From: Malachius bipustulatus
Lineage: Eukaryota > Arthropoda > Insecta > Coleoptera > Melyridae
Assembly: GCA_910589415.1 (NCBI GenBank)
Contig: OU342632.1
Location: 11,783,507 to 11,847,506 of the forward strand
Reading direction: 5' to 3'
Length of the DNA: 64,000 nucleotides
Shown: positions 12,843 through 57,111 of the stretch, in pieces
How positions within the stretch are numbered: position 1 is the stretch's first letter
Layout of the letters: every line of letters starts with the position of its first letter
Translations under genes and position numbers: made by a program
The notes under the pieces: model-generated
Told to the model about the DNA's origin: nothing
The model's input: the letters and a program-made list of their open reading frames with translations, nothing else
Databases searched by the model: none

Positions 12843-15730
12843 CTATAATTCTCGAGCAGCGATCACCAAGGTATCTGACATGCTATTCATGTTAAGATCG
12901 CAAATGGTCGAAATGCGGTTAAAAAGTGTCGACATTACGTACACGGGTGACTTTACAAGTACATTAGACCGCGGTATCCTCAGTGAAAATGTTCTTGTAG
13001 TCCTTAAATTCTGACAAGGGACGTGGAAACTAAAAAGCGATAACATCAAAGGACAATCTATGTGATTATGGAAGAGTTGATACAGGAACTTAATTGCAAC
13101 AATCTTCCGTCGCTTTTGTAGAGTCGTGAAACCGAATCTCTCCAACAAAAAATCACAGTTCATATCTCTCTGTGGATAAACACCATACATTTTATAATTC
13201 AGAAATCTCAGAAATCTTCTCTGTACACGTTCCACTTCATTGACCTGACAGAAATAATAGGGGGACCAAACCAGACAACAGTATTCTAATTTAGATCTTA
13301 TGTAAGAATAGTATAAGACCTTCAGACAGTGAGAGTTGTTGAAATCTCGGCAGTTTCTATGCAAGAACCCAAGCATCCTCATAGATGACTTGGTGATGAG
13401 GGTCACATGGTCAGCGAACGTAAGGCCACTATCAAATGTTACACCGAGATCCTTCACAGTACTGCTACGTGCTAATGTCTCGGACCTGAACTTATAGTCG
13501 TATGTTATGGGATTCTTTTTCTTAGTAAAAGTAACTACCCGACACTTACCCGTATTCATCTGCAGCCTATTATCCTCACACCACCCTTCAATATTATCAA
13601 TATCGTTCTGTATCAAAAGACAATCATCATGACTATTGATTACCGAAAATAATTTCAAGTCATCCGCGAAAAGAAGCTTAGAAGAATCGATAACATCCGT
13701 AATATCATTTATGAAATAATATCATTTATGAAAATCAGAAAGAGCAACGGCCCCAGGTTCGAACCTTGAGGTACACCAGATGTAGGGGTAAAAGAACGCG
13801 AACTATAGCCGTTATACAAGACGCACTGTTGTCGACTCGATAGGTAAGATGCAAAAAATGATCTCAGACGTGAACTGAAACCAAAATATTCAAGTTTTCC
13901 GAGCAGCAAATCATGATCAAGTCTATCGAAGGCCTTCGAGAAATCGGTATAGACCACATCAACCTGCCCCTGCGAATCTAAAGTCTCAGCAGCAAACTGC
14001 GTAAAATAAGATAAATTTGTCACCGTAGAACGTCCATTCATGAAACCATGCTGCAACGGTGAAATTGCCTGATGAATAGCAGGATAAATACAAGAATACA
14101 CCGACGCCTCAAAGACCTTAGCGAAGTTATTAAGGATGGAGATTGGCCTGTAATTGCTGATCAAAGCTGGATCACCATCCTTCAATACCGGACACACCTT
14201 AGCTGTCTTCCAAATAGTTGGAAAGATTGATGTTTTGAGAGACAAGTTAAATATAAGGGTTAGAGGTTCAACGAGGACACCTTCGCAATCCCCAATCAAG
14301 AAGCTAGGTATCTGATCGGAACCCGCCGTAGTCTTACGTTTGAGCTTCCTTATAGCATTAATGACATCGTCCACAGATAGCTCAGGGACATCAACGAACA
14401 GCGAGTCGAACTGGGATCTGGCAGTATAAACATTTCGTTGGGAAGATGATGATGGTAAGTATACACTAGCGAAATATTTAGCGAAATTTTCCACAATATC
14501 AGTGGGATTATCACACTTCAAACCTTCACTGTCAATCACAGAAGCCGGTATCCTAGATGTTCCCCTCTTACTCTGAATATACTGCCAAAATCTCTTGGGC
14601 TCATCCACCAAGCTACCCTGTAAATTATCAATGTAACTCCGATATGCATCTTTTATTTTGTGCTTAATTACGGCTCTCAGTTCTGTGAATTTTTGAAAAT
14701 GAAATACTTTCCCCGTACGCTTAAAACAGCCATGATGCCTATGCTTGAGTTTGATGTAATTTATAATCTCTTTATTAAACCAAGGTGGATAAGTACGAGA
14801 TCCCGGTCTAGTGCTATTATAGTGAGGTACAAACTGGTTGAAAATCGAGTATATTCTCTGGTAAAAATAGGAGCAGGCCTCATTCACATCATCATAAAAC
14901 CTCAGCTCAGACCAATCTTGAATGAGGAGAGCCTGATACAATCCTGGGAAATCAGCCCTTTTAAAATTATACTTCTTAGTACCTGGATTACATGAAAAAG
15001 AGCCTACCCTGGAAACGACAAAATCCAACTCAATGCAAAGGGAGGGATGGTGTGTGTCCTCGGGGACAAACGGTATGTTGTCACGAGATACGTCACAGTC
15101 AATGTTCCCCATAATTAAGTCCAACACGTGATCATTACTGTTTTTTACGTGATTAAATTGCCTATAGTCGTTATAATCTAGAAAACGACTTAATGCCCGA
15201 CCCTTAGGACCCCTGCTCAATCCGTAGTACCAGTCTGGAGCATTAAAATCTCCCAGTAGTAATACATGACTGACACTTGACAAATAGTTACAAAGCATTT
15301 CAAAGAAAGTCTCATAGTCGGTGACGGTGACGTCCGGTGGAATATAGATACAAAATATATACAGATAAGCAGTATTTAATCTAACTTTACACCCAACGCA
15401 ATCAATAGAAGGAATCTCCTTTGATAGGAAACCAAGGTCCAAATAAGATGCAATATATGAGTTTTTCAGTGCCAGGAGGACACCGCCACCGCGGACCACA
15501 TTGAGCCGGCTGAACTGGCGGTCCTTTCGATATACAAAAAAATTATCAGAGAAGTATTCAGAGCTTGATATATCCTCAGACAGCCAAGTTTCAGCCAGAC
15601 CAACACAATCGTAGCTCGAAGCAGATGAACTTACATAAAAGTCTGACGTTTTAGTCCTCAGACCACGCACATTCTGGAAATAACACCTAATATTGGATCC
15701 TCTAGGTTGGGCGGCTACATGTTTTTTGCT
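12843..15730 (-). pseudogene. LINE ORF2: endonuclease-reverse transcriptase, interrupted by a 17-bp duplication
   Basis: The ORF2 polyprotein would nick the target DNA and reverse transcribe the element RNA. The N-terminal apurinic-type endonuclease shows LAETWL, LLLGDFNAPDW and, at the usual SDH site, EDTHHPSL. The RT shows NYRPISILN, TDFSKAFDRLDH, GVPQGSNLGPLLFLIFIND and, after the break, LLFADDLKLF. A thumb/C-terminal region follows (KLEYCCLVWSP, VERVQRRFLRFL). The first open part is 15670-13709 by its GTG codon; the frame continues upstream to about 15730 (CYFQNVRGLRTK), overlapping the end of ORF1, so translation probably restarts near the ORF1 stop. The second open part runs from about 13708 to 12843. 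A 17-bp tandem duplication at 13701-13734 shifts the frame and creates a stop just before the catalytic FADD. Confidence 0.88.
13701..13734. repeat. 17-bp tandem duplication that disables LINE ORF2
   Basis: The units AATATCATTTATGAAAT (13701-13717) and AATATCATTTATGAAAA (13718-13734) differ only in the last base. In the reading frame they duplicate the codons for FINDI and add a frame change, ending the upstream frame at TAA (13709-13711 on plus). Removing one unit would rejoin LIFINDI to TDVIDSSKLLFADD. Confidence 0.85.
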
Positions 15731-16584
15731 CGGTCCAAAGAAGGGCCCTTAAATTTTGATATATAAGGGCAATTGTCTCTGTACTTCAAGGTGATATTCT
15801 GCTCCCCCTCTTCAATCCTCTTTTTAAAGTCGTGTACCACCGCTGCATTGGTAGTGCGCTGAACATGCGTCAGATCAGCGTGGAAGAGGTGCTTGCGATC
15901 CTTGTTGCGCTTGTTCGAACGCAAGACCTCACCAGCCTCCCTTTCGGTATCATATATGATCTTCAGTGGTCGAACTCTGTCCTTTCTGGTCGCACCAATA
16001 CGCACGATTTTCCTGGGTTGTGCAAATTTCCCCAAAGGTGATAGAATCTCAACGACACGGTCCAGATCATCCCGCACCCTATCAGCCACAGATTCGGATG
16101 CTGACTCAGGAATGTTGTAAATTATGACATTGCGGCAACGCTTTCTTCGGTCATCCAATTCCGAAATTACTTCAGACACCCCCGGAAGCTGCATCTCGGT
16201 TGGAACGGCAGCCTTGATTTGTTTCAACTCTTCTTTCACTATGATGACATCATTTTCAAGAGCATTTAATCTGTCATATATCTTCTTAAATTCCTCAGTA
16301 ATAACCTGCATTATATTGGACTTGAATGTCTCAAACTGCAACTTTATTGCATCCTCAATCAACGCTGTATGAGAGGAAGCACTCTGCTGGGCCACGTTAC
16401 AATGTGAGCACTGCCACTTGTTCCAGGACATCGTTTTTGCTTGTAGGTCACTAAGATTCAGGCATTTGATATGTGCAGACTTCCTGCACAACCCGTTGCA
16501 TTTAGTAGAGGGAGTTGTGGGAGTTATAGCAGAAGAACAAACCAAACAGTAGCCTGGCATCGCTACAAAAAACAATGTAAACAA
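15715..16584 (-). CDS. LINE ORF1: PHD-finger/coiled-coil/RRM-like nucleic-acid chaperone
   Basis: Intact 289-codon frame starting at ATG (MFTLFFVAMPGYC; the internal Met before PGYC is an equally good start). Residues about 13-60 form a PHD-like finger: CLVC, CNGLC, HIKC and a final CSHC. Residues about 80-125 look like a coiled coil (heptad-like IYDRLNALENDVIIVKEEL). From about 140 comes the ORF1p core, with RNVIIYNIPES and later RPLKIIYDTEREAGEVL, like the RRM-type fold of LINE ORF1 proteins that bind the element RNA. The frame ends at TAG where the ORF2 frame is already open. Nothing is missing. Confidence 0.85.
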   Translation of the reverse strand: MFTLFFVAMPGYCLVCSSAITPTTPSTKCNGLCRKSAHIKCLNLSDLQAKTMSWNKWQCSHCNVAQQSASSHTALIEDAIKLQFETFKSNIMQVITEEFKKIYDRLNALENDVIIVKEELKQIKAAVPTEMQLPGVSEVISELDDRRKRCRNVIIYNIPESASESVADRVRDDLDRVVEILSPLGKFAQPRKIVRIGATRKDRVRPLKIIYDTEREAGEVLRSNKRNKDRKHLFHADLTHVQRTTNAAVVHDFKKRIEEGEQNITLKYRDNCPYISKFKGPSLDRAKNM

Positions 16585-16660
16585 CAGACAGCTGATTCAG
16601 GTATACACAGCGGCGATATCAGCGACCTCGAGCAGTATCAAAAAAAAAAAAAAAAAACGC

Positions 16661-25037: not shown

Positions 25038-25852
25038 TACAGTGTGACCCATTTGTTCTTGAAACACCCTGTAGAATCTTAATTGATGGTGCGATTTTGA
25101 AAAAAATTCTTTTAAACCATAGAGCTTGATAAACTATATTTTGGGAGCAAAAATCGTCTCATTCCTACAATATCCAGGGCCTACTAGATCAGTGTTTACT
25201 TGTAAAATCTCAAAAATTCATATTAGCGATTTTTTTAGAAAAAAACTGGGCACGCCACGGGATTCACCAGCCCTCAAAACGGTACTGTACCAAATTTTAT
25301 TGGAAATGTCAGAGTAAAAAGGATCTTGTAGTTATTTTAAAAATTCATAATAATACTCCGAATTTTCATAAATTAATTTGAAAAAGGTCAAAAGCTATCA
25401 TAAGTAAAAAAAAATTAAAAAAAAGTAAAAACAAAAAAAAAAAAAAAGTAAATAAATAAAAAATTATAATTAAAAAATTAAAGTACCTACATTATCACCA
25501 ACTAGACGTACAATTTCTATTTTGTCTCTCTTGACCTTTTCGAATAAATTAATGAAAATTCGGAGTTCTATTATGAATTTCTAAAATAACTGCAAGATCC
25601 TTATTACTCTGACATTTCCAATAAAATTTAGTACAGTACCGTTTTGAGGGCTGGTGAATCCAGTAGCGTGCACAGTTTTTTTCTAAAAAAAATCGCTAAT
25701 ATGAATTTTTGAGATTTTACAAGTAAACACTGATCTAGTAGGCATTGGATTTTGTAGGAATGAGACGCTTTTTGCTCCCAAAATATAGTTTATCAAGCTC
25801 TATGATTTAAAAGAAATTTCTTAAAAATCGCACCATAAATTAAGATTCTACA

Positions 25853-25860
25853 GGGTGTTT
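25853..25860. repeat. Target-site duplication, left copy
   Basis: GGGTGTTT. It pairs with 29913-29920. Supported by the fact that joining the flanks through one copy recreates the foldback arm sequence. Confidence 0.75.
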
Positions 25861-25955: not shown

Positions 25956-28832
25956 TCAGAAATCGACATGCCGCTGTTCCAGGTATTCATCTATACTGTA
26001 ACAAGCTTTAGAAATTAAATATAATTTTAGTCTGTTGGCAAATATCGAAATCTGAAGATCCTTACAGTCTTCAGATAGTTTGTTGAAGAACTTTATGCCA
26101 TAAAATCTTGCACCAGTGACAGATGATGCAAGTCGATGACTTTCTATTCCTAAATCATGCTTAAATCTAGTGGCATATGGATGGGCTGCGTTATCATGGA
26201 AACAGTGAGGATTTTTGCGTACATAACACAAACACTGATATATAAACATTGAAGGCAGGGTCAATATCTTCAGTTCTGTGAAAGAAGGCCTGCAGTCATC
26301 CCTGTATCCCAACCCAGCAACAATCCTGACCGCCCTCCGCTGCAATCCAAAGATGTGATGCCGAATATTGAGGTGGCCCCAAACTATGAGTGCATAGTTC
26401 AGATGGGACTGAAACAGAGCATGAAAAGCCATCAGTAGTGTGGGTGTAGACACTGTGGCTTTCAAATTGCGAAGGACGAATATGGCCGAGCATAACCTCT
26501 TGCACACCATCTCTCCATGAGTCCTAAATCTCAGCTTATTATCGATGTGTAAACCTAGATATTTAACTTGATTACAGTAGTCCTCCAGATTCGCAGAGTT
26601 TGTAGGACGCGTTGTAAAGAGCATAGATGCTGACTTATCAACATTGAGCTGGAGTCCATTAGAAATGAACCAACAATTTACAGACTCGACAGCTCTAACT
26701 CCATCTCTAATAGTGGCATCCAAATCATGGTCAGAGTTCAAAATCGTTGTATCGTCAGCAAAGAGAACAGAGGCAGAGGACGAAGAAGAAGACGCATTCA
26801 TGTATTCAGGAAGGTCGTTTATAAAAATCAGGAATAATAGTGGTCCCAAGACTGAACCTTGAGGCACACCCCTGTTGACAGGTAGAAATGGAGAATTCTG
26901 ATTATTCAACCTTACTGTCTGCTCCCTCTGGGTCAGGAACGATGTAAGAAGTCTTATGCTAACTGGGTGCAGATTATACAGATACAGCTTACGTATCAGA
27001 GTAACGTGATCAACGCAATCGAACGCTTTGCTCAAATCAAGAAAATTAACGTGTGTAAATTTTCCGTTCTCGAAATTATTCAGAATGTGATCTATCATCT
27101 CAATCACAGCATTAACTGTGCCGCGACCCCTGCGAAAACCGAACTGACTACTCGTGAAATAATTTGATAGTTCGAAATATTTTGTCAATTGATGTTTCAA
27201 AATTCGTTCTAATATCTTGGAAAAAACGGAAAGAATTGCGATAGGTCTAAAATTTCCGGGGTCGTCGGTTGACCCTTTTTTATGAATTGGGATGACCACA
27301 GCCCTCTTCAAGACATTAGGAAAAACGCCCTCTCTGATGCTTTGATTAATTAATTTCGTAAGAGGCAAGATAATTATATCTTTAATATATTTTATGATGT
27401 TAACACTGAGACCATCCACATCCATCACATTACCTGACTTAAGGCTATCAATAGTATCTCTAACTACAATACAAGACACCTCATCAAATTTAAAGTATTC
27501 CGCATTTGAAGGAATACATTTACTGGATTCACACATCATTGTTATAGGATCAACATTCGAATTGGGTAATTCATTCGCAATTTTATCCGCAATGCTGGCA
27601 AAATATGAATTGAAATTACTAGGAGATAAGACATAGCTTTTGTCACAGTTACTGTTTCTACGTGTTCGACCCTCATTTATAATCTGCCAGGATGATTTTA
27701 CTGGATTCCGAGCTGATCTGAGAAAGTTATCATTAGCAGCTAATTTTGCATTTTTTATAGCCTGTCTGTAATGTCCCCTTAGCTTATTTTTGGTAGCCAG
27801 ATGACATCCCAAACCGGTTTGCTTAAACAGATCATCGAATAACAAGATCAAATTTCTCAACCTTCTCAGATCGCTATTGAACCATCTGAGTCTATTGTTA
27901 CGTTTATGAATCAGTACGGTCTTACTAGGAAAATACTCTGCACAGCCAGCAGATATGGCTCGAATAAACTCGCTGAACTTATAATTCACGCCTTCATCCG
28001 CTGAACATATATAATTCCAATCAATACACTCTAAAAATCTATACAGTTGACATTTCCCAACGGGAGTAATCGGTCGAATAATTTTTCTATCGACAGTAGC
28101 AGTATGGTGTTCATTAGTTGAAAACTGAATTTGAAAGCCCCTGTGGTCTGAGAATCCCGTTTTAACAGGATCTGCAAAAACTGACCCTTCGTTGAAATTA
28201 CTGAAGGCGTTGTCTAGACAATTATCTCCACGTGTGGGGAAGTCAACGTGCTTTTTTAGGCCATAGCCAGTCATAAAATCGCAAAGGTATGTAGCCTTTG
28301 CATCGTCATTACCAAATCTTACATTAAAATCGCCACAGACAATCACATAATGTTTCATAAAATCTAACGAACCAAATATTCCAGACATAATATCAAAAAA
28401 CACATTAAAATCACCTGTAGGTGGACGATAGACTGATATAACATACACATTTATGTGAGATATAAAAATTGAACAAACTTCACAGTCTCCTTCCAGTGAT
28501 CTCGATGAACAGTTCAAAGGATCCGCAACCATAGCCCTTACATCATTATGCACACAGATCATAGAGCCACCACACTTTTGAACACAGCGTGAAAAATGCG
28601 ATGCAACAGCATAGTTGTTTAAGGACAAACTGACCATTTCGCTGTCAGTTAGCCAGTGTTCCACAATACAGAGAACTAAAAATCTATTCCTATGTTGATC
28701 AAGTAGTATATCGACTTCGTCCACTATATTTCGAATCGACTGTACATTTGCACATAACAACGAAAGAGACCTGTCTCCACTTATTTTAGTGTCGTTGGAC
28801 GAGGCTTCATTTGAAAAAACCTCCTTATACAC
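25956..28832 (-). CDS. LINE ORF2: endonuclease-reverse transcriptase (intact)
   Basis: 958 codons without a stop. Residues about 20-240 are the apurinic-type endonuclease: LLCANVQSIRN, VEHWLT, VIVCGDFNVRFG, DNAFSN and the terminal catalytic SDHRGFQIQF, all with their key residues. Residues about 480-760 are the RT: AVVIPIHKKGS, FRPIAILSVFSKILERIL, FLDLSKAFDCVDH (Asp), NRGVPQGSVLGPLLFLIFIND and LFADDTTI (Asp-Asp). The thumb follows with VKYLGLHIDNKLRF and a region including LQRRAVRIVAGLG, then a C-terminal tail without RNase H or zinc knuckle. Length is normal for a CR1/Jockey-type ORF2. Starting at ATG 28832 it overlaps ORF1 by 52 bp, so translation must use reinitiation or another start mechanism. 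It acts in cis on the element RNA in target-primed reverse transcription. Confidence 0.92.
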   Translation of the reverse strand: MYKEVFSNEASSNDTKISGDRSLSLLCANVQSIRNIVDEVDILLDQHRNRFLVLCIVEHWLTDSEMVSLSLNNYAVASHFSRCVQKCGGSMICVHNDVRAMVADPLNCSSRSLEGDCEVCSIFISHINVYVISVYRPPTGDFNVFFDIMSGIFGSLDFMKHYVIVCGDFNVRFGNDDAKATYLCDFMTGYGLKKHVDFPTRGDNCLDNAFSNFNEGSVFADPVKTGFSDHRGFQIQFSTNEHHTATVDRKIIRPITPVGKCQLYRFLECIDWNYICSADEGVNYKFSEFIRAISAGCAEYFPSKTVLIHKRNNRLRWFNSDLRRLRNLILLFDDLFKQTGLGCHLATKNKLRGHYRQAIKNAKLAANDNFLRSARNPVKSSWQIINEGRTRRNSNCDKSYVLSPSNFNSYFASIADKIANELPNSNVDPITMMCESSKCIPSNAEYFKFDEVSCIVVRDTIDSLKSGNVMDVDGLSVNIIKYIKDIIILPLTKLINQSIREGVFPNVLKRAVVIPIHKKGSTDDPGNFRPIAILSVFSKILERILKHQLTKYFELSNYFTSSQFGFRRGRGTVNAVIEMIDHILNNFENGKFTHVNFLDLSKAFDCVDHVTLIRKLYLYNLHPVSIRLLTSFLTQREQTVRLNNQNSPFLPVNRGVPQGSVLGPLLFLIFINDLPEYMNASSSSSSASVLFADDTTILNSDHDLDATIRDGVRAVESVNCWFISNGLQLNVDKSASMLFTTRPTNSANLEDYCNQVKYLGLHIDNKLRFRTHGEMVCKRLCSAIFVLRNLKATVSTPTLLMAFHALFQSHLNYALIVWGHLNIRHHIFGLQRRAVRIVAGLGYRDDCRPSFTELKILTLPSMFIYQCLCYVRKNPHCFHDNAAHPYATRFKHDLGIESHRLASSVTGARFYGIKFFNKLSEDCKDLQISIFANRLKLYLISKACYSIDEYLEQRHVDF

Positions 28833-29776
28833 GTACCTGTAGGCCAGCGCTCGGAAGATATTATTTTTCCAAAGTTTTCATCATAGACTGATACCTTGAA
28901 GGATGCATAATCGTCTGGATGCTTAGATGTTAGAGATGTGCATCTAATCTCGGGAAAATCGACCTTCAAGAACATAATCATGTCTTCCACAGTAGTTTCC
29001 TTGTGTATTCTATAAACATGTGCATCTTTGAATCGAGGCGCGGATTTTATAGAGCCACATATCTCAGAGCCCGCGTCACCAACAATAACTTTGCGCTTTT
29101 TACGTCGATTAACCGTAGACCAGTCACTTGATTGGGGAGCTTTGTCAACTAAATTAGGAAGGGAACCAGCGCTCACAGCTGTAGAGCCGTCAAAGACCGA
29201 GGAAGAAGAACCACCAGCACCCGCATATTCAAGCTTACCTGCAGAACAGTCAGAACCATATGATCTTTGTTTATTTACTTTCCCAGGTGATACTGGCTTA
29301 TCATTTCTCGATAAAACGAAATCATCGTTACCGACCGATCGACCTTGAGACCGATTTGAGCTGGCATTTCTTCGTTTAACTTGTGTTTTTATCTTCTGAT
29401 TTTGTACATTAGCGAATTTATTTGAATCCTTAAGTACTTTAATTTCACTAGTTAACATAACAATCTTCTCTCGTAATTCACTTATTATGATGTCCTTGGA
29501 TCTTAAAATGTAGTTGAAGATCCTAGTATCAATCCTACCACCCGACTGGGTAGCTAGTTCTTCAACAGCCTCATAGAAGGGTGCACTGTGTTCAGACTCC
29601 TCCAGATCTTCGCAGCATATAATCACCAAATCGGACACAAATCTCACACTATTAGAGTACTTTGCACAACTTGGATGGAAAACATTATCGCACTTATCAC
29701 ATTTAAAACCATTTACAACGTGCTTTTTGCATTTACCACAAGCAGCGTCCGGCAACACAACCTTACTCGCCGCCAT
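28781..29776 (-). CDS. LINE ORF1: zinc-finger, coiled-coil RNA-binding protein (intact)
   Basis: 331 codons from ATG. Residues about 12-40 carry a compact Cys/His finger: CGKC, CDKC, then HPSC (PHD/zf type). Residues about 90-125 are a probable coiled coil (IISELREKIVMLTSEIKVLK). A basic, Ser/Gly-rich linker follows, with RRKKRK (possible nuclear signal) near 228-233. The C-terminal 75 residues (HVYRIHKETTVEDMIMFL, DDYASFKVSVYDENF, WPTGTCIRRFF) are an RRM-like domain seen in ORF1 proteins of many insect LINEs. It should coat the element RNA with ORF2. No defect is visible. Confidence 0.88.
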   Translation of the reverse strand: MAASKVVLPDAACGKCKKHVVNGFKCDKCDNVFHPSCAKYSNSVRFVSDLVIICCEDLEESEHSAPFYEAVEELATQSGGRIDTRIFNYILRSKDIIISELREKIVMLTSEIKVLKDSNKFANVQNQKIKTQVKRRNASSNRSQGRSVGNDDFVLSRNDKPVSPGKVNKQRSYGSDCSAGKLEYAGAGGSSSSVFDGSTAVSAGSLPNLVDKAPQSSDWSTVNRRKKRKVIVGDAGSEICGSIKSAPRFKDAHVYRIHKETTVEDMIMFLKVDFPEIRCTSLTSKHPDDYASFKVSVYDENFGKIISSERWPTGTCIRRFFQMKPRPTTLK

Positions 29777-29946
29777 ACTGATAAATACCTATTTTTTTTC
29801 TAACTACTATTTTTCTTATAAGTACATAAATTGTTTCTTTATTTAACCACTGACTGTAGACTGAATAATTATTTTACCTAAGTAGGTACCTACAGGGTGT
29901 TGAGACAATTTTGGGTGTTTCAAGAACAAATGGGTTACACTGTATA

Positions 29947-31076: not shown

Positions 31077-32082
31077 TATACAGGGTGCACCATGTATCCT
31101 TCTCTATATTGCTATCTCCTGAACGCTAAAAGATACAGGGTCGGTTAAATTAGAGAAAAGATGCGCAGTTTTGTGGCCATCTCGAATTCGTCAAAACATG
31201 CAAGATATCTGTGACCGTTCCTGAAATATCCTGAAAAAACTGAAAAATCGAGAAATCTTATTTTCGTCATAATCTTTTTTGTTATTGGAAATTAATAGAT
31301 AACTTTTTGTATGCTTACATAAGTCGGCAAGAGCTATCCATCTGACATTTCAAACATTTTCAAGGCCTACTAGATCCAAGAGTTTCCACAGTCAACTTTC
31401 GTTTTTCTTATGGCCGCCATATAATTTTTTTTATGTCGTTCGATATGAAAAAAAATAATGGAAACCAAAAATTAATAAACTTCAAAATTTTTTTTTTTAA
31501 TTTTTAATCTTAATTTTTCAAAGAAAAACCTAATAAAAAATCGTCGAAAAACGTCAACATGCATTTGTAAAATACGCCGAAATAGTGCTTGCCTTATGGT
31601 TTTTTAATTTATCTATGAAATTTGGTCTAAAAATGTGTCTTTTTTGTAAAGAAAAAAGAAAGAAGAAAATTTTTTTTTATTTATTTTTTGAAGTTTAACA
31701 ATTTTTAGTTTTTATGATTTCTTTTATACCGAACAACATAAAAAACACTATGGTGGCCATAAGAAAAACGAAAGTTGACTATGAAAATTCTGGGATCTAG
31801 TCGGCTTTGAAAATTTTCGAAATATCAGATGGGTAGCTCTTGCCGACTTATGTAAGCCCACAAAAAATTATTCATTAATCTCCAATAATAAAAAAGATAT
31901 GGCAAAAATGAAAAATCGCGATTTTTCAGTTTTTTCAGGATATTTCAGGAACGGTCACAGATATCTTGTATGTCTCGACGGAATCGAGATGGCCACAAAA
32001 TTGCGCTCCTTTGGACTTGTTTAACCGACCCTGTATCCGTTAGCGTTAGGAGATAGCAATATAGAGAAGGATACATGGTGCA
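31077..32082. mobile_element. Foldback element, TACAGGGTG family, copy 1
   Basis: Left end TATACAGGGTGCACCATGTA, right end GATACATGGTGCA, where the last CCCTGTATA is missing. Arms of about 0.4 kb are inverted copies containing TCGGTTAAATTAGAGAAA, GATATCTGTGACCGTTCCTG and TTATGGCCGCCATA. Copies of the same family lie at 46647-47640 and, decayed, at 2685-3556. No coding region. The right tip is cut where the LTR-related sequence begins. Confidence 0.85.
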
Positions 32083-42863: not shown

Positions 42864-43403
42864 AAATTGATGGTAGTTGTTTACATCCGCGGTTCCTAAG
42901 TTTCATCAATTTTTTCGGGACCGAGGAGCGAAATAGGGGTGCTGGGTGGGTAAGAAGCTAAAATCAGCCATTGCAAACTAATATTAAGGTCACAACTAAG
43001 GCCTCTTTGACACTACTGTCGAATTTCTATTTTTTTCTTCACTTTCAGGGCAAGGAAAATCTTCGAGATTAACAGTAGCACGATTTTTATTTTCAAATTT
43101 GCATTTATTTTGAATTTATATTCCAAAAATCGTAGCATCAAATCCTGTGTTCTGTTCACGATATGAGACAGCGGATATATTGGGAGTCCGCGTCTGTATA
43201 CGTTTGGAAGCGGTTCCCATTGTCATAAGTGGTTTCATCCGTAGTTATATCCGAGACTAGTGGTATTTCTCGGCGCTTGTATCAGGACCGTACTTTCGTT
43301 GCACTCCCAAAATCAATTTTTAAAGTCGTGTTGTGGCTTTCTCTTTCATTTGCAAAGCATATGAATACCTTCCTGGTGTTACTATAGGTATGTTCTCCAC
43401 CCC

Positions 43404-44290
43404 TATACAGGGTTATTCACGGTATACGCCACGGAAGATTATGGCCGTGTGTCTGGATTTTAGGATCTTTTTATTTTTTGAGTGGATAGAGACATGGCAG
43501 ACGTACGTTTTAAAATTATATTTATAATGTACAGAGTGTCCCAAAAGCATGAAACATATCAAAGTTATGTTTTTTTAAATGAAATGATCCTATGTTATTG
43601 CATTTTTAGATTGCCTGGGAAGAAAAATGAAGATTGGCTTTTACAGTTGGTGTTTAAATTCAAAAGTTTTTGAGTTATAAACAAGTGAAAATCGTCATTT
43701 TTCAAGTTCAAGGCCCTGTACAACGAAAACGGTTCAAGATAAAGAAAAACGGCTTACATGTCCCTATTTTAACTTTTCATGTACTATCCTATGGTATAGA
43801 AACATTTGTACTTTCTTTGATTTTTTTATTTGTCGACGCGTGAATAAATCTCAGAATTTTTCAAATTTTTTATCACCCTGTGTAAACATTTCATCTACAT
43901 CATTGGATAGTACATAAAAAGTTAAAATAAGGACATGTAAGCCGTTTTTCTCTATCTTAAGCCGTTTTCCTTGTACAGGGCCTTGAACTTGAAAAATGAC
44001 GATTTTCACTTGTTTATAACTCAAAAACTCCTGAATTTAAACACCAACTGTAAAAGCCAATCTTCTTTTTTCTTTCCAGGCAATATAAAAATGCAATAAC
44101 ATAGGAGTATTCCATTTAAAAAAACATAACTTTGAAATGTTTCATGCTTTTGGGACACCCTGTACATTATGAATATAATTTTAAAACGTACCTCTGCCGG
44201 GTCTGTATCCACTCCAAAAATAAAAAGATCCTAAAATCCAGAGACACGGCCATAATCTTCCGTGGCGTATACCGTGAATAACCCTGTATA
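43404..44290. mobile_element. Foldback element, outer shell
   Basis: Left end TATACAGGGTTATTCACGG, right end CCGTGAATAACCCTGTATA. The outer arms (43404-43529 and 44165-44290) are both about 126 bp and near-identical in inverse, including TACGCCACGGAAGATTATGG and its mirror. They enclose a second foldback element. Confidence 0.85.
43530..44164. mobile_element. Foldback element, inner, centred in the outer one
   Basis: Left end TACAGAGTGTCCCAAAAGCA, right end TGCTTTTGGGACACCCTGTA. The arms of about 290 bp include GGCTTTTACAGTTGGTGTTT and its mirror. The inner element lies exactly at the symmetry centre of the outer one. Confidence 0.83.
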
Positions 44291-44574
44291 GGTGCCATAG
44301 TGAAACTTTAGGAGCCGCGGATGTAAATAATGACCAAATTGATTTTCATGGCATGTCAATACTTTATTGCAAGTTTTTTTAATGTGTAGATACAAAATCT
44401 GACAAAACAGTTTAAAGCAGATATTTGATAGTTACGCCCATTCTAAAAAATTGAAGAAGATGGATAACTGAAAAAAGGCATATCTACATGAACTGATCTA
44501 CAGATTTAATTTGATAATAATTATATTGACTGTCTTGTTATGAACAACGACAAACAAAGGAGATTTTATATACA

Positions 44575-46646: not shown

Positions 46647-47640
46647 TATACAGGGTGCATATTGCTATCTCCTGAACGCTAAGAGATACAGGGTCGGTTA
46701 AATTAGAGAAAAGATGCGCAGTTTTGTGGCCATCTCGAATTCGTCAAAACATGCAAGATATCTGTGACCGTTCCTGAAATATCCTGAAAAAACTGAAAAA
46801 TCGAGATTTCTTATTTTCCTCATATCGTTTTTATTATTGGAAATTAATAAATAATTTTTTGTAGGCTTACATAAGTCGTTAAGAGCTATCTATCTGACAT
46901 TTCAAAAATTTTCAAAGCCTACTATAGATCCAAGAGTTTTCACAGTCAACTTTCGTTTTTCTTATGGCCGCCATATTATTTTTTTATGTCGTTCGATATG
47001 AAAAAAATAATGGAAACCAAAAATTAATAAACTTTAAAAAAATTTTTTTTTAGTTTTTATTCTTAATTTTTCAAAGAAAAACCTAATAAAAAATGGTCGA
47101 AAAACTTCAACATTTGTAAAATACGCCGAAATAGTGCTTGCCTTATGGTTTTTTTAATTTATTTATGAAATTCGGTCTAAAAATGTGTCTTTTTGTGAAG
47201 AAAAAAGAAGAATAAATTTTATTTTTTTTATTTTTTGAAGTTTAACAATTTTTTGTTTTTATGCTTTTTTTTATACCGAACAACATAAAAAAACCCTATG
47301 GTGGCCATAAGAAAAACGAAAGTTGACTATGAAAATTCTGGGATCTAGTCGGCTTTGAAAATTTTTGAAATGTCATATGGGTAGCTCTTGACGACTTATG
47401 TAAGCCCACAAAAAATTATTCATTAATCTCCAATAATAAAAAAGATATGGAAAAAATAAGAAATATCGATTTTTCAGTTTTTTCAGGATATTTCAGGAAC
47501 GGTCACAGATATCTTGTATGTCTCGACGGAATCGAGATGGCCACAAAATTGCGCTCCTTTGGACTTGTTTAACCGACCCTGTATCCGTTAGCGTTAGGAG
47601 ATAGCAATATAGAGAAGGATATATGGTGCACCTGTAGATA
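46647..47640. mobile_element. Foldback element, TACAGGGTG family, copy 2
   Basis: Same family as 31077-32082 throughout. Left end TATACAGGGTGCATATTGC lacks about 20 bp present in copy 1 (CATGTATCCTTCTCTATA region), while the right arm keeps it (AGAGAAGGATATATGGTGCA) and the full tip CCTGTAGATA. Arms about 0.4 kb, loop A/T-rich, no coding region. Confidence 0.86.
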
Positions 47641-51454: not shown

Positions 51455-51939
51455 TCATAAATAAAACTATTGTACATAGTAGATTTTCACCTTATTGATT
51501 TTATGCACAACGCGTTTCACCACCTTGTGGCTTCTTCAGGCGCTATTGTAATGGTATTACAAAATACATAATGGTGAACTTATATGACTATGTAAGAAAG
51601 TATTGGTCTTAATTTATATAACGGTTGTTAAGGTATATAATTTATGAAAGTAGGTTGGTAGAAAAGAATATTGAGGGGTGGCCATTTATTTGATCATTAA
51701 GTAGGTTTACCTGAATTTTTATGTTTGTTTATTTCTAATGATTCTAATAAATTTAATTTCCAACTTTTACTTTGATTATGTAGGATACCTATCAAAATCT
51801 GCGTTAAATTGATGTTCTCCAATCAAATGATTTGAGTAAGTAGTTAGAATCTTGTTTCTTGTAATCGTAGCTTCTTTTGTGTTCTAAAATACTGGTTTTG
51901 AAATTTCTACCTGTTCTCCCTATACATACCTATTACCTA

Positions 51940-52126
51940 ATATTTGATGAGTTTTTATTGGGATTTAGGTTCTAATTTAAATTTGCCACTAAAGATTCTT
52001 TACAGAACAAATTAGAAAACTTTCGCACAGCATGTGAGGAGAAGACAAAAGACATGGACGGTACCGTTTCGTCCTTATTATGGACTCATCAGCATATCAT
52101 ATCAGTCAGATCAAAACCACACACGC
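51940..52126 (-). mobile_element. Small insert carrying a hammerhead motif, flanked by 15-bp direct repeats
   Basis: The insert lies between CATACCTATTACCTA at 51925-51939 and the same word at 52127-52141. Wider boundaries (51924-52145) with CCTAT duplications on both sides are equally possible. On the minus strand it starts GCGTGTGTGG, carries the ribozyme, and ends with AATAAA and CATCAAATAT. No coding region. It could be a SINE-like retroelement, a retrozyme or a solo PLE terminal repeat. Confidence 0.55.
52051..52098 (-). ncRNA. Hammerhead ribozyme motif (self-cleaving, short stem III)
   Basis: Minus strand, 5' to 3': GATATG (stem I), CTGATGA (core), GTCC-ATAATAA-GGAC (stem II, 4 bp, 7-nt loop), GAA (core), ACG-GTAC-CGT (stem III, 3 bp plus tetraloop), C (cleavage base), CATGTC (stem I strand, 6 bp with one G-U). 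All conserved core bases are present: C3 U4 G5 A6 G8 A9, G12 A13 A14, the A15.1-U16.1 pair and C17. A second GAC/GTC helix can extend stem I beyond an internal loop, as in natural type I hammerheads. Predicted cut is between plus positions 52057 and 52056. Short stem III is typical of the hammerheads found in PLEs, retrozymes and some animal repeats. Cleavage activity is inferred. Confidence 0.8.
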
Positions 52127-52319
52127 CATACCTATTACCTACATACCTATAAATTTTGTCACAATCTATGCATTTTAATTTGTAGACTCCTGATTTTAGA
52201 TTTTTATCTGTTTTTTGTTTATGATTTTTGAGATGTTTCCCTATTAAATTATCTGTTTTGAAAGTTGTATGAAGATTATGTTAAACAATTCACATTCTTG
52301 AAACAGAAAACCACAAATT

Positions 52320-53090
52320 AATTAATTTCTTAGAATAAATAATAACTAGAAACAACAATAAACATGAATTCGGTATATACCATAAACCATCACACACAGA
52401 CACAGTCATTGTTGGTATTCTGTGGTCATACCTAATAATTCAGCTCACCCCTTTCAACATAAAATGGTAGCATTCAGTAGCTTCATACACAGATTATTAA
52501 ACACCCCCTTAACTAACGAGAACTACAACAAATAACTTAATATTATAAAACAAATTGCCTACAACAACTATGACCCGAAAATAATTGACAGTTTAATCAC
52601 TAAAAAACAATTCACATTAGCTATACAGAAAATATTTCCGGAAACGAAAGAAACCACAAAAATATTTAACTGCTTAACTTACATACCTAGGTAAACCCAG
52701 TAAAAAAACTAAAAACACTATTTTCTCAACACAATCTCCATGCAACTTTGACAGAACAGAGATTCAACAGGAAAACATCTCAAAAATTATAAACAAAAAA
52801 CCAATAAAAATCTAAAATCAGAAGTCTACAAATAAACATGCACAGATTGTGACAAAATTTATAGAGGGAGAACAGGTAGAAATGTCAAAACCAGAATTTC
52901 AGAACACAAAAGAAGCTATAAATTCAGGTAATTTACTTAATGATCAAATAGATGACAACCCTCAATATTGTTAAATCTATTCACCAAAACTCGGAAATTC
53001 CCAGAATAACAATAACTACTTTTACCTGCTTACTTTCATAAATAATATACCTTAACCGTTATATCTTAATCTTACAAGATCAATACTCCA
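52320..53090 (+). pseudogene. Penelope-like element fragment (RT end, GIY-YIG) in opposite orientation
   Basis: Plus-strand pieces in changing frames: IYHKPSHTDTVI (usual YrKpThTd), SFIHRLLNTPLTNENY, IKQIAYNNYDP, HNLHA near 52740, then VYK-TCTDCDKIYRGRTGRN and VKTRISEHKRSY. The GIY-YIG text is nearly continuous, with one stop. The 3' region (ACTTAATGATCAAATAGATG, CCCTCAATATTG, CTTACTTTCATAAA) parallels that of the minus-strand copy and ends near 53090 before the terminal part. No RT active site remains. Confidence 0.72.
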
Positions 53091-56178: not shown

Positions 56179-56779
56179 TATACATACAGGGTGTACCAGC
56201 TCGATTTAGACAACGGTAAGGGCCGTGTAGGTCTCGTCAAGACGAAACGTTTTTTTATTTGAAGTTTTTTGATTTGGACCTTCGTTGCGGAAATATGTCC
56301 GACTTCCGGTTTTTAGTTTTTTGGCTCCGCAGTTTCGGCATTTTTAGGTTCTCGCCCAAACTGAAACTAGTTTTGGAAACTCCTTAGCTTCAGTTACAAC
56401 TTTCATATTGAAGTCAAGGTTCTATCTCTGTTGGATTCAAAATGGCGACATGCCTAAGACTTTAAATTTTAAGTCTTTGAATCAATTCAAATTGAATCAA
56501 ATTGAAAAATTAAGATTTTGAATCCAACAGAGATAGAACCTTGACTTCAATATGAAAGTTGTAACTGAAGCTAAGGAGTTTCCAAAACTAGTTTCAGTTT
56601 GGGCGAGAACCTAAAAATGCCGAAACTGGAGCCAAAAAACTAAAAACCGGAAGTCGGCCATATTTCCGCAATGAAGGTCCAAATCCAAAAACTTCAAATA
56701 AAAAAACGTTTCGTCTTGACGAGACCTACAAGACCCTTACCGTTGTCTAAATCGAGCTGGTACACCCTGTATATGTATA
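56179..56779. mobile_element. Foldback element with almost perfect arms
   Basis: Left end TATACATACAGGGTGTACC, right end TACACCCTGTATATGTATA. The arms of about 285 bp mirror each other with only scattered mismatches (for example TCAAGGTTCTATCTCTGTTG against CAACAGAGATAGAACCTTGA). The loop is under 40 bp and A/T-rich. No coding region. The near-identity suggests recent origin or arm-to-arm gene conversion. Confidence 0.9.
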
Positions 56780-56982
56780 TTTATTTTTATAGTGAAAGAA
56801 AAAATTAAATTCTTATGAGGTCATTGAAAACCGCAGCTGGACAACTTTCATCCAACTGTAGGTAGGTATCTGCCAGCAAAGTTGATTTTATGAATTTTCA
56901 GAGTTTGACCTTCGCACGGATCAAATGGAAATCCCCCTCGGTTAAAATTCCTGAAATTCAAGTAAGTTATTGGCGATAGAAG

Positions 56983-57111
56983 TGTGAAAACAGAAAAACA
57001 ATTAAAAGTTCACGTCATGAGATATTCCCAAAAACACAACTTTTTAGTTTAAAATCAAGTTTTTGGGAATATTTCATGACGTGAAATTTCAACCGTTTTT
57101 CAGCTTTCACC
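56983..57111. repeat. Short palindrome
   Basis: GTGAAAACAGAAAAACAATT and CACGTCATGAGATATTCCCA on the left are mirrored by TGGGAATATTTCATGACGTG and TTTTTCAGCTTTCAC on the right, with a loop of about 20 bp. Confidence 0.75.

Follow-up and report, generated by a model that had tools for sequence, protein, structure and literature searches.

The hammerhead motif on the minus strand of the window (the whole 64,000-nt stretch of DNA analysed here) most probably belongs to a non-autonomous element of the non-LTR retrozyme kind that has a unit of 572-575 nt and is moved by a Penelope-type retrotransposon (PLE). We assign this reading a probability of roughly 0.78. The family is new; among the animal non-LTR retrozymes it is best classed as a variant with a long unit and an insertion signature of the PLE type. 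Its copies are dispersed and 5'-truncated, form tandem units, end at two 3' positions and conserve the hammerhead, and the pattern of their insertion suggests that a PLE is the mover. The window copy is best explained as a truncated insertion with one arm whose target was a dead PLE. An earlier reading of the window, made from its sequence only, had described the hammerhead; what goes beyond it is that the hammerhead is nested in a PLE and belongs to a 573-nt unit, that this unit forms tandem and head-to-head arrays, and that the same genome has a second hammerhead family.

Genome searches and samples

The source genome (544 Mb, 52 contigs) was searched with a 501-nt query, which gave 59 matches from the best 40 of 1439 first-look candidates, and with a query from the upstream part of the unit, which gave 47 matches from the best 40 of 856 candidates. 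The former provided 39 loci and the latter 20, i.e., 59 loci in total, with copies drawn from best-scoring lists and not randomly. The unit was mapped on 60 sequences (the 39 and 20 loci and the window), which resulted in 64 arrays. Conservation was assessed on 20 loci selected without using the motif. A strict hammerhead descriptor was defined as the full core with at least 5 pairs in stem I, 4 in stem II and 3 in stem III.

The hammerhead motif

Every base and stem that the sequence-only reading had listed at minus 52098-52051 was verified in the letters: a stem I of six pairs, one of them G-U (GATATG/CATGTC), then CTGATGA, stem II (GTCC/GGAC), GAA, ACG-GTAC-CGT and the cleavage C at 52057, a position that agrees with the alignment to the type I model. 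The motif has the invariant core, three helices and open stem I of a type I hammerhead. Stem I is interrupted by an internal loop and loop II measures 7 nt, two elements that might provide a loop-loop contact between helices I and II. The outer GAC/GTC helix proposed in addition is present; it looks like a remnant, as in the commonest form of the family these two strands could, by eye, form six pairs. Judged from its sequence, the motif is confirmed as a genuine hammerhead of the catalytic type (type I), with predicted cleavage (Table 1).

The RF00163 (type I) model matches exactly these positions end to end (model positions 1-45), with an E-value of 1.7e-4 in a 1.1-kb Rfam scan and of 0.0099 in the whole 64-kb window against 4227 families. 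The score of 28.1 bits is under the gathering cut-off of 34, a threshold that the sequence-only reading had set for itself, and nothing in the window reached gathering in the Rfam scan. The strict descriptor nevertheless bears out the claim that three helices around a full core are very unlikely by chance: its only site in the window is the hammerhead, and 2.28 Gb of Markov-1 random sequence matched to the window in dinucleotide composition contain a single site, or about 5.6e-5 per window. The bare core pattern without stems has two matches in the window versus 1.21 expected, which is not significant; thus the significance is carried by the stems.

According to an energy model, a 97-nt piece has a free fold of -28.7 kcal/mol versus -21.3 kcal/mol with the hammerhead enforced, so that another fold is favoured by 7.4 kcal/mol. 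This preference is a caution and not a refutation, because the model leaves the non-canonical pairs of the hammerhead junction unscored. The folding stability of the short insert alone is weak (z of -1.34 for the linear molecule; for circles, -1.45 at 187 nt and -1.90 at 202 nt).

Several other candidates were discarded. An outer helix using the first bases of the insert was dropped after 1458 of 3000 shuffles proved as good anywhere and 297 of 3000 when anchored. A snoRNA match next to the hammerhead, with 22.8 bits where 37 are required, is due to chance, as is a phage match to half of the insert (E 0.06), in which the phage side has no hammerhead. A pattern scan of viral contigs for the hammerhead gave 0 matches. 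Elsewhere in the window there are long near-perfect hairpins at 56179-57110, 43402-44292 and 25062-25860; sub-threshold Rfam miRNA/sRNA matches at 56179-57110 are probably just the hairpins. A palindromic repeat pair (31106-32047 and 46659-47595, about 15.5 kb apart) has parts that are 85-97% identical.

Table 1. Positions of the described features in the window
Feature	Position	Strand	Basis
Type I hammerhead ribozyme, stems I-III and full core	52051..52098	minus	bases, Rfam match, descriptor
Predicted cleavage site, between 52057 (C17) and 52056	52056..52057	minus	position in type I model
Retrozyme fragment, positions 341-539 of the 575-nt unit, 5'-truncated	51932..52131	minus	genome copies, unit mapping
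Direct repeat CATACCTATTACCTA, probable target-site duplication, low-coordinate copy	51925..51939	.	perfect 15-nt repeat
Direct repeat CATACCTATTACCTA, probable target-site duplication, high-coordinate copy	52127..52141	.	perfect 15-nt repeat
PLE endonuclease region upstream of the insert (interrupted copy)	52142..52282	minus	comparison with inverted copy; PLE name from motif
PLE endonuclease region downstream of the insert	51616..51924	minus	comparison with inverted copy; PLE name from motif
Second PLE copy, head-to-head, without insert; stops, frame changes	52386..53064	plus	window self-comparison
Minimal hammerhead-like motif of the PLE itself (GCGC-CTGAAGA...GAAACGCGTT-GTGC)	51505..51543	minus	descriptor devised after seeing the motif
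LINE, long open frames of 973 and 335 aa	25959-29788	minus	
Second LINE, RT and endonuclease domains, RT split across two frames	12846-16596	minus	

The insert and its host element

That the hammerhead sits in a small insert was borne out. The insert is about 190 nt long (51940-52126), is bracketed by perfect 15-nt direct repeats and lies within the endonuclease region of a degraded PLE; the same region occurs inverted at 52728-53064 (plus strand) with 83-93% identity and without the insert. Among the matches listed, other genome copies span exactly the insert plus a few bases (52131-51932). These copies do not have the 15-nt repeats, so the possibility that the repeats are part of the element was rejected and a target duplication is preferred. 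At 5 of 3180 sampled window points, which lie in two places (one of them a simple repeat), an identical 15-mer was present to the left and to the right at a distance of up to 150 nt. What runs counter to a simple duplication is a TAGGTA-rich 23-nt stretch (52127-52149), which would be expected in the empty target and is absent from the inverted PLE copy.

We take the window element to be a PLE, presumably correctly, from its sequence motif CxxC...KIYxGRTGRN. The name is also based on a sub-threshold GIY-YIG match of one 30-aa piece (16.7 bits vs a cut-off of 22.6), the head-to-head arrangement, the minimal hammerhead-like motif and the genome search. Pfam and NCBIfam searches of the 168-aa PLE read-through found no PLE domain, and a protein database search with it found no match. 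The minimal motif, about 500 nt away from the retrozyme hammerhead, has a 4-bp stem I, a 5-bp stem II and a palindromic CGCG in the place of stem III. A loose descriptor, written after the motif was seen, had 0 hits in 20 shuffles of the window.

The 572-575-nt family

The motif recurs in other copies of the source genome, as it should if the sequence-only reading is right: 94 copies were found in the 59 loci, 65 of them identical over 65 nt, with the core and its spacing kept in 87. Tandem neighbours are spaced by 572-575 nt (in locus L025 successive 3' ends are 575 nt apart), and Rfam hammerheads follow this period: of 23 matches, which come from 8 of 10 scanned loci, 20 score 28.1 bits and none attains the gathering score. 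The unit directly abuts another unit in 25 of the 59 loci, including all 20 picked by the upstream part. With L013 as the reference, homology is seen in 44 other copies at the anchor and, going upstream, still in 37 of them at position -40, in 27 at -100 and in 21 at -140, a stepwise loss as in 5'-truncating retroelements.

One unit has a GC content of 31%. It carries a TATA-like stretch and, by eye, an ATG just past the cut site with a 27-codon frame. There is no single RT/GIY-YIG ORF of an autonomous PLE in the unit, nor an ORF between the joined units of the 25 loci. Folded as a circle, the unit is 52% paired and its energy is low (z -3.67, 0 of 60 shuffles as low).

Comparison of the L025 unit with the consensus of 28 other units revealed differences in 0 of 68 hammerhead columns, while 33 of 376 upstream and 7 of 113 downstream columns differ. 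This conservation reflects either constraint or a recent common origin combined with selection on the motif. Within the family the motif is too uniform for compensatory changes to be judged.

Array architecture and insertion footprints

Head-to-head arrays, in which a minus arm is followed by a plus arm so that the 5' ends meet, make up 34 of the 64, and the other 30 have one orientation only; tail-to-tail arrays are absent (0/64). No array has more than 6 segments. The same bias is seen among the matches listed for the two queries: neighbours within 1.5 kb comprise 17 head-to-head, 2 same-strand and 0 tail-to-tail pairs for the 501-nt query and 9, 5 and 0, respectively, for the upstream query. 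The 98 outward 3' ends are found at unit positions 528-552 (46 ends), 571-575 (43 ends) and elsewhere (9 ends); thus 89 fall in two clusters about 37 nt apart, with an uncertainty of a few bases in the BLAST ends.

Direct repeats of at least 11 nt surround 25 of the 64 arrays (17 of them head-to-head), versus 2 of 200 mismatched flank pairs, and none was found at the other 39. The repeats are 11-15 nt long; one of the 25 arrays (L046) is flanked by a simple repeat, and of the 15-nt repeat in the window the test recovers the 13 nt inside its flank window. Additionally, arms within an array are closer to each other than to arms of other arrays in 21 of 25 arrays (means 0.985 vs 0.966, p 1.4e-4). 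Given the repeats around the arrays and the greater likeness of arms within an array, the best account of a head-to-head array is a single insertion event that left cDNA on either side. Head-to-head arms, an optional 3' tail and a short target duplication are the insertion signature of PLEs, and the retrozyme arrays carry it.

A second hammerhead family

A search of the genome with RF00163 revealed another family, with a unit of 320 nt. The best 74 of 73468 candidates are all above the cut-off, mostly at 58.7 bits; the same search in 14 control genomes was positive in none of them. Listed same-strand neighbours are 319-322 nt apart in 11 of 13 pairs (314 and 633 nt in the others), and family neighbours within 1.5 kb among the matches listed are 5 head-to-head, 13 same-strand and 0 tail-to-tail. 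Locus L082 (C1:2205900-2207200) consists of 320-nt units in tandem and has a type I hammerhead of textbook form, and L083 has a minus arm and plus arms head-to-head. This is a second retrozyme family of the same genome, with a unit inside the range of 170-400 nt of metazoan retrozymes. Between the two families both sides of stem I differ at 4 of 6 pairs, by eye.

Which element moves the family

Among the findings that count against the preferred reading are Rfam scores under the gathering cut-off in the window and in the 23 family matches, the other fold favoured by the energy model, the 39 arrays at which no direct repeat of 11 nt or more was found, the lack of clear BLAST similarity between the unit and the PLE stretches compared, and the 52% pairing of the circle. 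The assignment to short-stem-III type I hammerheads of the PLE or retrozyme kind, suggested earlier, is supported by what the locus holds.

The PLE read-through found 1167 candidate places, and the best 150 have E-values of at most 4.9e-15; stop-free frames of at least 800 aa hold 17 of these. Neighbours within 9 kb among the best 150 are 25 head-to-head, 8 tandem and 0 tail-to-tail. The unit could be conceived as a solo pseudo-LTR (pLTR) of an autonomous PLE family other than those compared here, with the hammerhead as the PLE's own ribozyme and the short copies as truncated ends, an explanation that we consider unlikely and yet deserving of real weight. Type I hammerheads and TATA boxes are reported for PLE pLTRs in passages of PMC3846280 and PMC11167929, the unit has its TATA-like stretch, ATG and short frame, and the PLE junctions compared are two (L084/L085 and L086). 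On the other side stand the unit-unit joins of the 25 loci without an intervening ORF. Moreover, PLE hammerheads are described as minimal, without stem III or tertiary contacts (passages of PMC7761336), and the two PLE-like motifs seen here are minimal too, whereas in the hammerhead of the unit stem I is looped and stem III is present, with 3 bp. One of the two is the motif in the window; the other, in L084 and L085, reads CUGUC-CUGAAGA...GAAACUAGUU-GACAG upstream of the ORF start and is not reported by Rfam. No minimal hammerhead-like motif was found in the 381-nt junction L086. BLAST found no convincing similarity between the 575-nt unit and the two PLE stretches (best E 0.11); an origin of the unit from either of these PLEs, which represent two of several families, is thus not apparent. 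The 320-nt unit has a 21-nt T-rich match to the same stretches (E 2.8e-4).

LINEs are abundant in the source genome and look recent. For the LINE at 25959-29788, 21 of the best 150 places share the top E-value and are 100% identical along a stretch of 242 aa, so that it looks recently active. It is improbable, in our opinion, that LINE machinery makes the insertions and that the head-to-head arms arise via twin priming or template jumping. The 15-nt direct repeats around Nematostella repeats have been likened to LINE insertions (PMC4918200, in part). Among the best 150 of 12829 candidates for the LINE of the window, 0 opposite-strand neighbours and one same-strand pair were found here, a control that is weak because the sample is sparser than the PLE one (150 of 1167). 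In the family the 3' end of the unit faces outward on both arms, and twin priming does not give arms with both 3' ends outward.

We attach little credence to a hammerhead-bearing satellite DNA spread by recombination, like pDo500 of cave crickets: tandem hammerhead units are typical of animal hammerhead satellites (passages of PMC2837043), but the copies here are dispersed, 5'-truncated and in arrays of at most 6 segments (64 arrays), which are often bracketed by direct repeats. A chance resemblance without a ribozyme, for which the Rfam score under the gathering cut-off might speak, can be dismissed in view of the 5.6e-5 sites expected per window and the conservation of the motif across copies.

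A possible mechanism

Under the preferred reading, that of a retrozyme moved by a PLE, family transcripts would be cut by the hammerhead into unit length and the resulting RNA probably closed into circles. The PLE protein would bind the retrozyme RNA and nick AT-rich DNA, reverse transcription would begin within the RNA at one of two sites, and extension on both target strands would leave two 5'-truncated cDNAs joined head-to-head inside one target duplication. The role of the PLE protein is the strongest of these inferences, ahead of a joint extension of both strands in a single event and, lastly, of a circular RNA as the template. A linear multimeric RNA would account for the tandem arms as well as a circle does.

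Some details of this scheme have parallels in the literature. According to passages of PMC11167929, the anole PLE cleaves and extends both strands and starts inside the RNA, with a 30-40-bp tail lying between its two internal start sites. Its hammerhead mutants insert in vitro unaffected, so cleavage may not be needed. Passages of PMC3846280 describe inverted pLTRs, with the head-to-head arrangement most frequent, an optional 31-bp tail, 8-10-bp duplications and a TATA box, and propose self-priming as the origin of head-to-head PLEs. Such structures, ascribed to self-priming in 2013, could, we suggest, stem from extension on both target strands.

The evidence leaves us evenly balanced on a broader proposal, namely that animal retrozymes parasitize PLEs as SINEs do LINEs, a circular hammerhead RNA being copied by the PLE protein from both target strands at once in single events, with two start sites of the PLE type, so that head-to-head multi-unit arms would appear within one duplication. 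If this is true, the window shows the two nested, with the retrozyme lodged in a dead PLE and a minimal hammerhead-like motif belonging to that PLE.

Comparison with known systems

Plant LTR retrozymes (passages of PMC4918200) resemble the family as non-autonomous hammerhead retroelements with circles of the 600-800-nt class; they differ in the type III hammerhead, LTRs, PBS/PPT and 4-bp duplications, none of which is present here. The Dolichopoda satellite pDo500 (PMC2837043, in part) likewise has tandem repeats with a conserved type I hammerhead and a unit of roughly 500 bp; unlike it, the copies here are dispersed and truncated, with direct repeats and inverted arms.

The metazoan non-LTR retrozymes of Cervera and de la Pena (2020, passages of PMC7229834) are closer. 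The type I hammerhead with a short stem III, the low GC content (<50%), the lack of LTR and PBS, the ORF-less tandem units, the target duplications of more than 4 bp and the presence of PLEs in the same genome are common to both. The unit is longer here (572-575 nt vs 170-400 nt), and the pairing of the circle is 52% as compared with "above 70%" for metazoan retrozymes in passages of PMC4918200. The strict head-to-head arrays and the two preferred 3' ends are undescribed in the PMC7229834 passages, and circles are putative here. A literature search limited to open-licence papers, seen in part, found no description of head-to-head retrozymes.

With PLEs (passages of PMC3846280 and PMC11167929) the family shares 5' truncation, partial tandems, head-to-head inversion, an optional 3' tail of 30-40 nt, short target duplications and a TATA-like stretch. 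Unlike PLEs, which have minimal hammerheads, it has a fuller hammerhead and a unit without an RT/endonuclease ORF and without clear sequence similarity to the L084/L085 and L086 junctions. Animal retrozymes were defined, and PLEs named as strong candidates for moving them, in PMC7229834 (the candidacy also in PMC8969392 and PMC7761336). In the passages of these three papers the candidacy is based on type I hammerheads, tandem occurrence and co-existence in genomes. Insertion footprints common to retrozymes and PLEs in one genome are a different and more direct kind of evidence on the mover. With them the question can be put to the test in every assembled animal genome, as well as with purified anole PLE protein.
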